Assembly (NCBI GenBank): GCA_001899145.1
Contig: MKVF01000017.1
Coordinates: 62,001-126,000 of the forward strand
Source of the DNA: Flavobacteriia bacterium 40-80
GTDB lineage: Bacteria > Bacteroidota > Bacteroidia > Flavobacteriales_D > Crocinitomicaceae
Length of the DNA: 64,000 bases
Direction: 5' to 3'
Positions 44,702 to 47,988 of the stretch are shown here, piece by piece. The first letter of the stretch is position 1. Every line of letters begins with the position of its first letter. The notes under the pieces were generated by a model. The model was not told the origin of the DNA. It worked only from the letters and a program-made list of their open reading frames with translations, and made no database searches. The position numbers and the translations under genes are program-made.

Positions 44702-44732
44702 TTTGTTAATAAAAAAAATACGTTTACATTTG
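44702..44732 (+). promoter_or_regulatory. Full Bacteroidota promoter of rpsU
   Basis: TTTG at 44702-44705, a 19-bp spacer, then TACATTTG at 44725-44732. Both parts match the consensus. It starts right after the acyl-CoA dehydrogenase stop. The rpsU leader is about 40 nt, AT-rich and without a Shine-Dalgarno sequence. Confidence 0.8.
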
Positions 44733-44776
44733 CATTCCCAAAATTAAAAATAACAGAATTTAAATAATAAAAAAAT

Positions 44777-44968
44777 ATGTTGATTATTCCAGTAAAAGAA
44801 GGAGAGAACATCGAAAGAGCTCTTAAGAAGTACAAGAAGAAATTCGATAAAACGAATGTCATGAAGGAACTAAGAAGTAGAAAAGAATTTGTGAAGCCTT
44901 CAGTTATCAATCGTCAACAGAAGATTAAAGCTGCATACAGACAAAAAATGCAGATTGAGAATGCATAA
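44777..44968 (+). CDS. rpsU: Ribosomal protein bS21
   Basis: A 63-residue basic protein with the S21 signature (PVKEGENIERALKKYKKKF and VMKELRSRKEF). It binds the small subunit near the 3' end of 16S rRNA, and in Flavobacteriia bS21 is thought to help hide the anti-Shine-Dalgarno sequence. Its promoter is clear. The order rpsU-xerC-hpf is shared by many Bacteroidota. A terminator-like hairpin that also holds the xerC start lies 26 bp downstream. Confidence 0.97.
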   Translation: MLIIPVKEGENIERALKKYKKKFDKTNVMKELRSRKEFVKPSVINRQQKIKAAYRQKMQIENA

Positions 44969-44994
44969 TGTAACTTTAAAAGTTATTCATACGT

Positions 44995-45024
44995 AAAGGA
45001 GTCAATATGACTCCTTTTTTTATT
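44995..45024 (+). terminator. Terminator-like hairpin that contains the xerC start codon
   Basis: A perfect 10-bp stem (44995-45004 with 45008-45017) has a 3-nt loop and is followed by T residues up to 45021 and a T-rich stretch. The left arm contains AAAGGAG, a Shine-Dalgarno-like sequence 5 bp before the xerC ATG at 45007, and the right arm encodes the first residues of XerC. It may terminate most rpsU transcripts or block xerC translation. Confidence 0.8.
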
Positions 45025-45888
45025 TCTGATTTTTTAAATTACCTGAAGGTTGAGAAGCGCTATTCCGACCATACGGTTATTGCTTATCAGGGAGATTTGC
45101 AGGAATTTTTTGAATTCATCCAGCCGGTTGCAATTGTTGAGGCTACCCATCAGCTGATCAGATCCTTCATTTATTTTCTGAAAGAAAAGAATCTGGAGAA
45201 TACAACGATCAACAGAAAGATTTCTTCCCTGCGTGCCTTTTATAAATGGCTGGAAAAAAGAAACGAGATCAAGATCAATCCATTGTCGAAAACAATGCTG
45301 TTAAAACAGCCGAAACGATTACCGGCTTTTGTTCATGAAACGGACGTTAAAGAACAGAAGATAGAAAATATTTTTGAGAATTCCGGTTTTGAGAATTTAC
45401 GGGACCGCCTGATGTTTGAGCTTTTTTATCAGACAGGAATGCGTCTTTCCGAGCTGATAGAATTAAAGGTTGCGGACATTCAAGGAGCTTCTGTCCGGAT
45501 ACTGGGGAAACGAAATAAAGAAAGAATTGTCCCTGTTTCTCCTGATCTGCTCAGCCTGATAAATCAGTACATTAAGGAAAGAGAAAAACTGGAGGTAAAG
45601 TCTTCTTGTTTATTATTAAAAAATGACGGGAATAAATTATATACAAAACTTGTTTATAGAAAAATAAATTATTACCTTGGGATACTGACAAACGTAGAGA
45701 AAAAAAGTCCTCATGTTCTCCGGCATACATTTGCAACACACCTGCTGAATAATGGCGCGGGAATTGAAGCTATAAAATCGTTGTTAGGGCATTCAGACCT
45801 GAGAGCTACCCAGGTTTATACCCACAACACGTTTGGACAGTTAAAGAACATTTATTCACAAGCCCATCCGAGAGGGCGTAAAATTTAA
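45007..45888 (+). CDS. xerC: Tyrosine recombinase XerC
   Basis: Resolves chromosome dimers at dif, together with XerD. 293 residues. The N-terminal SAM-like core-binding domain begins FLNYLKVEKRYSDHTVIAYQ. The catalytic set is complete: Arg in TGMRLSELIEL, Lys in ILGKRNKERI, HVLRH (His and Arg), GHSDLRAT and the nucleophile in QVYTH. The ATG at 45007 lies inside a terminator-like hairpin with a Shine-Dalgarno-like AAAGGAG; no better start is seen downstream without losing the conserved N-terminus. The gene follows rpsU and precedes hpf by 4 bp. Confidence 0.95.
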   Translation: MTPFFISDFLNYLKVEKRYSDHTVIAYQGDLQEFFEFIQPVAIVEATHQLIRSFIYFLKEKNLENTTINRKISSLRAFYKWLEKRNEIKINPLSKTMLLKQPKRLPAFVHETDVKEQKIENIFENSGFENLRDRLMFELFYQTGMRLSELIELKVADIQGASVRILGKRNKERIVPVSPDLLSLINQYIKEREKLEVKSSCLLLKNDGNKLYTKLVYRKINYYLGILTNVEKKSPHVLRHTFATHLLNNGAGIEAIKSLLGHSDLRATQVYTHNTFGQLKNIYSQAHPRGRKI

Positions 45889-45892
45889 GGCT

Positions 45893-46189
45893 ATGGAAAT
45901 TAAAACAAATGCGGTAAACTTCTCAGTTGACAAGAAATTGGTGGAACATATCAATGAAAAAGTTTCTAAGCTTAATTTATTTTTTGATCAGATTATTTCA
46001 AGTGAAGTTTTTTTAAGAGTAGATAAAAGTTCCGAAAAAGAAAATAAATATGCCGGAATTAAAATAGCTATTCCCGGATCTGAGTTGTTTGCGGAAAAGC
46101 AGTGTAAGTCCTTTGAAGAAGCAGTAGATCTTACAACGGAAGCGTTGAGAAAACAAATCATCAAGCATAAAGAAAAAGTTAAAAATTAA
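45893..46189 (+). CDS. hpf: Ribosome hibernation-promoting factor, short form
   Basis: A 98-residue protein of the HPF/RaiA family that binds the small subunit and inactivates ribosomes in stationary phase. Visible parts are NFSVDKKLVEHINEKVSKLN at the start and FAEKQCKSFEEAVDLTTEAL near the end. The length is that of short HPF, without the C-terminal dimerisation domain. It starts 4 bp after the xerC stop and ends before a terminator at about 46214. Confidence 0.93.
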   Translation: MEIKTNAVNFSVDKKLVEHINEKVSKLNLFFDQIISSEVFLRVDKSSEKENKYAGIKIAIPGSELFAEKQCKSFEEAVDLTTEALRKQIIKHKEKVKN

Positions 46190-46213: not shown

Positions 46214-46250
46214 TAAGGCGTATTTCAGGATGCGCCTTTATTTTTTTTAA
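46214..46250 (+). terminator. Terminator after hpf
   Basis: AAGGCG at 46215-46220 pairs with CGCCTT at 46233-46238, with a 12-nt loop, followed by a tract of T. It separates hpf from the tRNA operon. Confidence 0.75.
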
Positions 46251-46362: not shown

Positions 46363-46436
46363 GCCGGTGTAGCTCAGTTGGCTAGAGCAGCTGATTTGTA
46401 ATCAGCAGGTCGGGGGTTCGAGTCCCTCCACCGGCT
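46363..46436 (+). tRNA. tRNA-Thr (TGT)
   Basis: A cloverleaf with acceptor GCCGGTG paired to CACCGGC, D-arm with AGCTCAG, anticodon stem GCTGA/TCAGC with loop TTTGTAA (anticodon TGT), and T-arm GTTCGAG. CCA is not encoded. First of four tRNAs before tuf, as at thrU in E. coli. Confidence 0.97.
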
Positions 46437-46455
46437 CAACATTAATTTAATGTTC

Positions 46456-46537
46456 GGGGATGTCGCATAGTGGCTATTGCAGCAGACTGTAAATCTGTCA
46501 CCTTAAGGTATCGTTGGTTCGAGTCCATCCATCCCCA
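46456..46537 (+). tRNA. tRNA-Tyr (GTA)
   Basis: An 82-nt class II tRNA with a long variable arm. The acceptor GGGGATG pairs with CATCCCC; the anticodon loop CTGTAAA gives GTA; T-arm GTTCGAG. CCA is not encoded. Corresponds to tyrU of E. coli. Confidence 0.97.
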
Positions 46538-46550
46538 CAGAACACTATAA

Positions 46551-46623
46551 GCGGGAGTAGCTCAGTTGGTAGAGCGTCAGCCTTCCAAGCTGAGGGTCGC
46601 GAGTTCGAGTCTCGTCTCCCGCT
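46551..46623 (+). tRNA. tRNA-Gly (TCC)
   Basis: The acceptor GCGGGAG pairs with CTCCCGC; anticodon stem TCAGC/GCTGA with loop CTTCCAA gives TCC; T-arm GTTCGAG. Corresponds to glyT of E. coli. Confidence 0.97.
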
Positions 46624-46641
46624 CAAAATTTTAAAGTGGAT

Positions 46642-46713
46642 GCCGGTGTAGCTCAGGGGTAGAGTACTTCCTTGGTAAGGAAGGGGTCACGAGTTCAAAT
46701 CTCGTCATTGGCT
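46642..46713 (+). tRNA. tRNA-Thr (GGT)
   Basis: The acceptor GCCGGTG pairs with CATTGGC with two G-U pairs; anticodon stem CTTCC/GGAAG with loop TTGGTAA gives GGT; the T-loop is TTCAAAT. Corresponds to thrT of E. coli. tuf follows 87 bp later. Confidence 0.95.
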
Positions 46714-46725
46714 CTAAAGAGGGTA

Positions 46726-46800: not shown

Positions 46801-47988
46801 ATGGCTAAGGAAAATTTTAATCGTTCCAAACCGCACGTTAACATCGGTACTATCGGTCACGTGGATCATGGAAAAACTACTTTGACTGCTGCGATCTCTA
46901 AAGTATTGTCTGATAAAGGTCTTGCGCAAGCGCGTGATTTCTCTTCTATTGATAACGCTCCTGAAGAAAAAGAACGTGGTATCACAATCAACACTTCTCA
47001 CATTGAGTATGAAACAGCTAACCGTCACTATGCACACGTTGACTGTCCGGGTCACGCGGATTACGTGAAAAACATGGTTACAGGTGCTGCTCAGATGGAC
47101 GGTGCTATCTTGGTAGTTGCTGCTACAGATGGTCCGATGCCGCAAACTCGTGAGCACATCCTTTTAGGTCGCCAGGTAGGTGTTCCTAGAATTGTTGTGT
47201 TTATGAACAAAGTTGACATGGTGGACGATCCTGAGTTATTGGAGCTTGTTGAGATGGAAATCCGTGAATTGTTATCATTCTACAGCTATGATGGTGATAA
47301 CGCTCCGGTTATCCAGGGATCTGCTTTAGGTGCGTTGAACGGTGAAGCACAATGGGTTTCTAAAGTTGAGGAATTAATGGATGCAGTTGATGCTTACATT
47401 GAGTTACCTCCACGTGATGTTGATAAACCATTCTTGATGCCGGTTGAAGACGTGTTTACAATTACAGGTCGTGGAACTGTAGCAACAGGTCGTATTGAAA
47501 CAGGAGTAATCAACTCTGGTGATCCGGTTGAGATTTTAGGTATGGGTGATGTTAAATTGACATCTACTGTTACCGGGGTGGAAATGTTCCGTAAAATCTT
47601 GGATAGAGGAGAAGCTGGTGACAACGTAGGTTTATTGCTTCGTGGTATTGAAAAATCTCAGATCAAACGTGGTATGGTTATCTGTAAACCAGGTTCTACT
47701 AAACCGCATAAAGAATTTAAAGCTGAGATCTATGTATTGAAAAAAGAAGAAGGTGGACGTCACACTCCATTCCATAACAGATACCGTCCTCAGTTCTATT
47801 TCCGTACAACTGACGTAACAGGTGAGATCTTGTTAACAGACGGACGTGAAATGGTTATGCCTGGTGATAACGTTTCAATTACAGTTAAATTGATCGTTCC
47901 TGTAGCGATGGACAAAGGTTTACGTTTCGCTATCCGTGAAGGTGGTAGAACAGTAGGTGCCGGTCAGGTTACAGAAATCGTTGAATAA
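46801..47988 (+). CDS. tuf: Elongation factor Tu
   Basis: Delivers aminoacyl-tRNA to the ribosome. 395 residues, with [13 protein letters not shown] (P-loop) at 19-31, the switch II motif DCPGHADYV and the guanine-specific NKVDM. It ends [14 protein letters not shown]. Codon use is strongly biased toward a few codons, as expected for a very highly expressed gene. It lies in the tRNA-Thr-Tyr-Gly-Thr-tuf operon and is followed by a terminator just before tRNA-Trp. Confidence 0.98.

Follow-up and report, generated by a model that had tools for sequence, protein, structure and literature searches.

ECF promoters combine an AAC-containing -35 box with a CGT -10 box; those of sigma-W and sigma-M in B. 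subtilis follow the form TGAAAC-N16-CGTA, with the C near -13. In E. coli, the terminator between rpsU and dnaG lets part of the transcripts through, and vmlR reportedly carries a terminator/attenuator that sequesters a Shine-Dalgarno (SD) sequence. For the Flavobacteriales, a study of bS21 reports strong SDs before rpsU in ~80 percent of members and ties the bS21 effect to very strong SDs, below -13 kcal/mol; its main text makes no mention of xerC or Crocinitom- (PMC9976891). In B. thetaiotaomicron, ~3.7 percent of 5' UTRs are shorter than 10 nt (PMC7366714). Our literature search on rpsU, xerC and terminator together returned nothing relevant, and we found no paper for an ECF consensus, the Crocinitomicaceae anti-SD or a link between rpsU and hpf.

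The window analyzed here is a stretch of 64,000 nucleotides from Flavobacteriia bacterium 40-80, and the features described below from the rpsU promoter to the terminator after hpf lie on its + strand. The rpsU gene for bS21 (44777-44968; TIGR00030 and PF01165, over cut-off) is followed by xerC, encoding a tyrosine recombinase (45007-45888), whose best NCBIfam match is TIGR02224 XerC, with an E-value of 8.8e-87, yet under the curated cut-off of that model. Only 4 nt past xerC lies hpf/yfiA (45893-46189), the gene of the ribosome hibernation-promoting factor. Since hpf overlaps xerC or sits at most 40 nt from it in 68 of 69 family loci, it is probably carried on the xerC message. The terminator after hpf (46215-46238) served us as a control for stem turnover. 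Four tRNA genes (Thr, Tyr, Gly, Thr; 46363-46714) separate hpf from an ORF (46801-47988) which, from its sequence, we take to be elongation-factor-Tu-like; an Rfam search gave matches to tRNAs only. Upstream of rpsU, a putative promoter of the housekeeping type consists of a TTTG -33-like box (44702-44705) and, judged from sequence context, the -7-like box TACATTTG (44725-44732), which matches TAnnTTTG (consensus TTTG / TAnnTTTG from PMC7366714). TAnnTTTG occurs at most 100 nt upstream of rpsU in 87/87 family loci, a count made without a shuffle control.

The junction between rpsU and xerC is occupied by a hairpin that starts 26 nt past the rpsU stop codon (44966-44968). It reads AAAGGAGTCA-ATA-TGACTCCTTT (44995-45017), followed by TTTT to 45021, and thus comprises a perfect 10-bp stem with four G-C pairs and a T7 tract at 45015-45021. 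Its predicted folding energy is -12.0 kcal/mol for the hairpin alone; for the surrounding 71 nt the fold z is -4.28, a value equaled in 0/200 shuffles. The left arm opens with the SD-like AAAGGAG (44995-45001), and the xerC ATG (45007-45009) falls in the loop and right arm. The features on which the initial annotation was built, i.e., stem, T tract, AAAGGAG arm and ATG at the loop, are all confirmed in the sequence. Its further remark that the hairpin resembles the rpsU terminator also holds, given the fold score and the maintenance of the structure in relatives with compensated stem changes, and on sequence and fold the best reading of 44995-45021 is an ordinary intrinsic terminator of rpsU with a 10-bp stem, ATA loop and T7 tract. 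A XerC start further downstream, raised there as an objection, finds no support: as there is no other in-frame ATG, GTG or TTG before the conserved N-terminus, 45007 is the only ordinary xerC start. Directly past the T tract, where many relatives carry the xerC ATG, the window has an ATT codon (45022-45024).

Alignment of rpsU-xerC gaps in relatives, proposed earlier as a check on the hairpin, supports it broadly. The family sample (f1) held 200 genomes, 182 of them with rpsU, and 90 rpsU loci were read (the window's own, 29 from a search and 60 fetched). The genome of the window is the only species of its genus among the genomes compared; its named neighbors include Crocinitomicaceae, Fluviicola and other Flavobacteriales. 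A hairpin with a T tract follows rpsU in 87 of the 90 loci; none was called in L093 (contig end), L179 and L190 (loop too long for the script). In 36 loci, the window included, an in-frame ATG lies in the loop or right arm (class A), and four more have such an ATG plus a second one past the T tract (class AB). The xerC start is found only past the T tract in 31 loci (class B) and elsewhere in 14 (class C), while xerC was not found in two (class N). Overall, xerC adjoins the rpsU terminator in 71/85 classified loci. On a quick XerC tree, in which the XerC of the window forms a long branch with uncertain placement, the ATG position changed at least nine times (four of the changes forced by supported branches), so that the hairpin persists as the ATG shifts into the loop or out of it.

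The stem itself is conserved in a manner that points to pairing. Departures from the common left arm are compensated on the right one (AAGGGAG/CTCCCTT, AAGAGGAG/CTCCTCTT, AAAGAGTG/CACTCTTT and AAAGGAATA/TATTCCTTT), hence the pairing of the stem is under selection. GGAG is retained in the left arm of 67/71 loci of classes A, AB and B, as compared with 5/14 of class C. Among 51 genomes in which both structures are readable, GGAG occurs in 48 rpsU hairpins versus 11 hpf terminators and CGT stands 5' of 50 rpsU hairpins versus 0 hpf terminators; the four columns preceding the T tract carry 1.29-2.0 bits per column in the rpsU hairpin versus 0.25-0.92 in the hpf terminator. We observed no association between GGAG and the loop-ATG class on the tree, GGAG hardly differing across four supported independent pairs.

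We also considered whether the stem is just the one that terminators of this genome commonly have, and rejected the idea: the hpf terminator is far less conserved, and of 29 terminator-like hairpins in 279 kb of the genome (a count that leaves out six stretches chosen around known AAGGAG hairpins), only the rpsU-xerC one has AAGGAG in its left arm. Genome-wide, hairpins of the AAGGAG..CTCCTTTTTT type occur at seven places, xerC among them; four of the other six, read on one strand, showed no ORF above 50 aa starting inside. The claim that SDs are rare in this DNA stood in part: AAGGAG lies at -20 to -4 of a single ORF (xerC) out of 187 with at least 150 aa, but it is no rarer there than in the control stretch at -45 to -29, which also yields one. 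A whole-genome census of AAAGGAG-N4-9-ATG gave 107 places versus 77 for the reversed pattern, these being raw places not assigned to genes.

Between the rpsU stop codon and the hairpin we found two further conserved boxes. In the window these are GTAACTTT (44970-44977, with GTAAC at 44970-44974), a -35-like box, and CGT (44992-44994), a -10-like box, 17 nt past AAC here and 16 nt past it in most relatives. CGT is located no more than 8 nt 5' of the left arm in 70/71 loci with adjacent xerC versus 0/14 with the xerC start elsewhere. When these 70 loci are anchored on CGT, a second box appears 19 nt upstream, with an A in 70/70, inside AAC(A/T)TTT. The complete AAC-N16/17-CGT pair is present between the rpsU stop and the hairpin in 66 of the 71 adjacent loci, representing 15/16 genera, where base shuffles expect 0.14. 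The five exceptions are L088, with a 15-nt spacer, and L103, L188, L196 (all genus g7) and L181 (g6), which have no AAC at the right place. The rpsU stop position was rejected as a confounding factor: in L095 and L096 the boxes are fixed relative to the hairpin, though the stop lies ~45 nt further away.

The start codon is likewise set at a narrow distance from these boxes. Counted from the C of CGT, the class A ATG lies at offset 13 (9 loci), 14 (12), 15 (2), 16 (4), 17 (8) or 20 (1), thus at 13-17 in 35/36 class A and in 4/4 AB loci; the offset in the window is 15. In class B, offsets to the first in-frame ATG, where counted, are 28-40; with no start codon at the expected point, class B would have no leaderless start, which speaks against the promoter reading below.

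Loci in which xerC has left the terminator, or in which no hairpin was called, permit the boxes to be followed apart from the stem. We searched at most 100 nt before the xerC match in 16 loci (the 14 of class C, L179 and L190) and detected a box pair of some kind in 11, with 0.35 expected. GAAAC or TTAAC boxes precede xerC in the relocated L085, L091, L157, L184 and L193 and in the hairpin-less L179, the ATG being at offset 14 in L184 and 13 in the other five. In L107, also of class C, the boxes are present with the ATG at offset 27, while L190 turns out to be an ordinary locus with xerC adjacent and a long loop (44). Chance probably accounts for the matches in L149, L151 and L154 (offset 43), two of which lie inside a hairpin stem, and L137, L142, L146, L160 and L191 have no box pair within the searched 100 nt. 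Class C is therefore divided into five loci with boxes and an ATG at 13-14, L107 at 27, and eight with none or chance-like ones. The 20 nt preceding the ATG contain GGAG in 0/7 box-bearing loci (six relocated plus L179). Given the boxes at relocated loci and this absence of GGAG, xerC is accompanied on relocation by the box pair at its set distance from the ATG, and not by the SD-like arm. TAnnT(T)TG, quoted as a housekeeping-type promoter box in PMC7366714, occurs between rpsU and xerC in 8/14 class C versus 5/71 adjacent loci, the class C stretches being longer; the eight are L085 and seven loci without a well-placed box pair. The XerC tree, for which L085 and L191 were too short, indicates only two independent losses of rpsU-xerC adjacency, and L085 is likely a third independent relocation, its genus mates being class A. 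The number of independent events behind the test is hence small, although every single match is improbable. We also noted that L085, unlike its genus mates, has ~1.3 kb between rpsU and xerC, and that its rpsU terminator is without AAGGAG and CGT.

From these data we infer that an ECF-like promoter of xerC-hpf probably overlaps the rpsU terminator, with the xerC message starting at about the first codon. Its boxes would be G(A/T)AAC(A/T)TT and CGT(A/T)A, 16-17 nt apart and overlapping the rpsU 3' end, so ~55 bp would carry three signals, with the hairpin and T tract ending the rpsU message. Taking the C at -13 puts the predicted start at C+13, i.e., at 45005 (~+/-1), in the hairpin loop and 2 nt before the xerC ATG. 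The ATG lies at offset 13-14 in 21/36 class A loci and in all six relocated or hairpin-less loci listed above, and in five of these six C+13 coincides with the A of the ATG. The xerC mRNA would then be leaderless or have a leader of 1-4 nt, as against ~15-27 nt in class B relatives, and a start inside the loop would leave it with neither the SD-like arm, which lies upstream of the predicted start, nor the hairpin. The presence of the xerC ATG in a terminator loop would likewise follow from a -10 box, start point and ATG held at fixed distances with the rpsU terminator packed between them. The near-invariance of AAAGGAG counts against this reading, as a promoter plus any terminator would not account for it: as far as the sequences compared go, neither a terminator nor the relocated promoters would call for conservation this tight. 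The bases may be kept because they serve both the stem and the promoter stretch, or because they act as a weak SD in read-through RNA.

The same boxes recur at other genes. Among 40 genomes with MraZ we examined 30 family loci, the start being set in 26 (L308, L320, L322 and L326 were dropped). AAC-N16/17-CGT is found at most 160 nt upstream of mraZ in 14/26 loci, with ~0.6 expected, and the boxes lie at -96 to -101 in 13/26, the own genome (L324) among them. The mraZ upstream regions (L305-L334, own L324) also show, in many loci, AAGTTATCAACA and GTGGTAAAAAGTGG repeats behind CGT, the former presumably DnaA-box-like and the latter, as we assume, MraZ-box-like. Among the matches listed, 20 places picked by eye include three before gltX and four before mraZ, and 10/20 are outside long ORFs. 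In three genomes of genus g2 (L285-L287), a gene that is presumably gltX-like, to judge by its N-terminus, has a conserved GAAAC-N16-CGTT element ~67 nt upstream.

Genome-wide support for the boxes is mixed. In 52/60 genomes, the simple pattern GAAACNTT-N13/14-CGTT occurs less often than its reversed control, which counts against a promoter. A two-box score for which xerC from other genomes served as the training set, the window locus (L001) being left out, places the window xerC at the top of 301 own-genome ORF upstream regions (19.2; next 14.6), and none of the inside-gene controls reached 14.3. The ten best scorers lean toward hydrophobic N-termini, suggestive of export (7/10 vs 82/291, p 0.009; inside-gene control 3/10), a lean that fades at the top 30 (16/30 vs 13/30 in the inside-gene control).

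The initial annotation had suggested that the hairpin, with its SD-like AAAGGAG, could let the bS21 level set xerC expression. In full form, a true SD hidden in the hairpin would be bound by ribosomes without bS21, whose anti-SD is free, and translation of xerC (and hpf) from rpsU read-through RNA would rise, which we consider very improbable. It does draw on the near-invariance of GGAG (67/71) against the freely varying hpf terminator (11/51, matched genomes) and on the canonical anti-SD in family 16S tails (two genomes read; a search for the 16S tail in the own-genome assembly found no 16S match), and bS21-lacking ribosomes of F. johnsoniae favor strong SDs according to PMC9976891. Yet the SD would fall outside the predicted xerC mRNA, which starts downstream of AAAGGAG, and GGAG precedes the ATG in none of the seven box-keeping relocated or hairpin-less loci. 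Class B keeps GGAG equally well (28/31), with the ATG past the T tract and too far away for an SD, while in loop-ATG loci the spacing from GGAG to ATG is mostly 3 nt (21/39 counted). The SD:anti-SD energy is -8.6 kcal/mol in the window versus -19.9 for a Flavobacteriaceae-type rpsU SD under like scoring; class medians (A, AB, B) are -8.3 to -8.55 and the lowest single value is -12.5, computed with a program and tail length other than those of PMC9976891. Moreover, AGGAG, GGAGG and AAGGA are absent from -25 to -1 of rpsU (window: 44747-44776) in 86/87 family loci, L167 being the exception, so bS21 autoregulation by an SD should be absent or different in this family. The role of AAAGGAG as the SD of xerC was therefore abandoned.

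Two other explanations dispense with an ECF-like promoter. The boxes might form an RNA element or a transcription-factor site, for which it speaks that the simple pattern is not enriched genome-wide; we regard this as quite unlikely, as the two boxes are not palindromic, lie just upstream of starts at a fixed spacing with +/-1 freedom and are followed by the ATG where a start point would be expected, and as TAnnT(T)TG occurs in class C in 8/14 loci (seven without a well-placed pair) vs 5/71 adjacent ones. A plain attenuator, in which xerC has no promoter of its own and a leaky rpsU terminator sets a low level of xerC-hpf much like the one before dnaG in E. coli, would agree with the adjacency of xerC to the terminator in 71/85 classified loci and with the tight xerC-hpf arrangement (68/69), but it leaves unaccounted for the fixed-spacing boxes, their return at relocated xerC with the ATG at 13-14, and the mraZ boxes, and it too seems unlikely. 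The rival readings, that of the bS21-sensed SD included, are not fully exclusive of the promoter reading or of one another, and their likelihoods need not sum to one.

If an ECF-like promoter does overlap the terminator, the arrangement might act as a switch by transcription interference, an idea that we offer as doubtful speculation. Polymerases from a strong rpsU promoter would pause and terminate on the xerC-hpf promoter, so growth would keep xerC-hpf off; a drop in rpsU transcription, or a rise of an envelope/stress sigma factor, would clear the promoter and release a leaderless xerC-hpf message. HPF would then run inverse to ribosomal-protein transcription with no dedicated regulator needed. 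More broadly, a testable promoter map replaces the idea of bS21 sensing. If true, a conserved alternative promoter would link xerC (chromosome-dimer resolution), hpf (ribosome hibernation) and mraZ at the start of the division cluster in one family. Terminator, promoter and start codon could occupy common bases, and with bases so shared the conservation of an SD-like stretch in numerous genera need not mark a true SD. One short reporter could separate rpsU read-through, promoter occlusion and leaderless initiation.

In comparison with known systems, the putative xerC promoter resembles those of B. subtilis sigma-W and sigma-M in its GAAAC box, spacer of 16-17 nt, CGT and expected start at about C+13, and its boxes also occur before mraZ; it differs in overlapping a terminator and in its predicted start being nearly on the ATG. 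The hairpin shares with intrinsic (Rho-independent) terminators a GC-containing stem and T tract after rpsU, with compensated stem changes in relatives, but here the loop and right arm are also the start of the next gene and a -10-like box adjoins the left arm. As in vmlR-type attenuators, which are said to sequester the SD, one hairpin can terminate and hide an SD; here, however, the SD is predicted to lie outside the xerC transcript. With the strong-SD autoregulation of bS21/rpsU in Flavobacteriales, as described in PMC9976891, the locus has rpsU and a canonical anti-SD in common, whereas rpsU here is without an SD and the SD-like stretch, which is weaker, comes after rpsU and inside its terminator.
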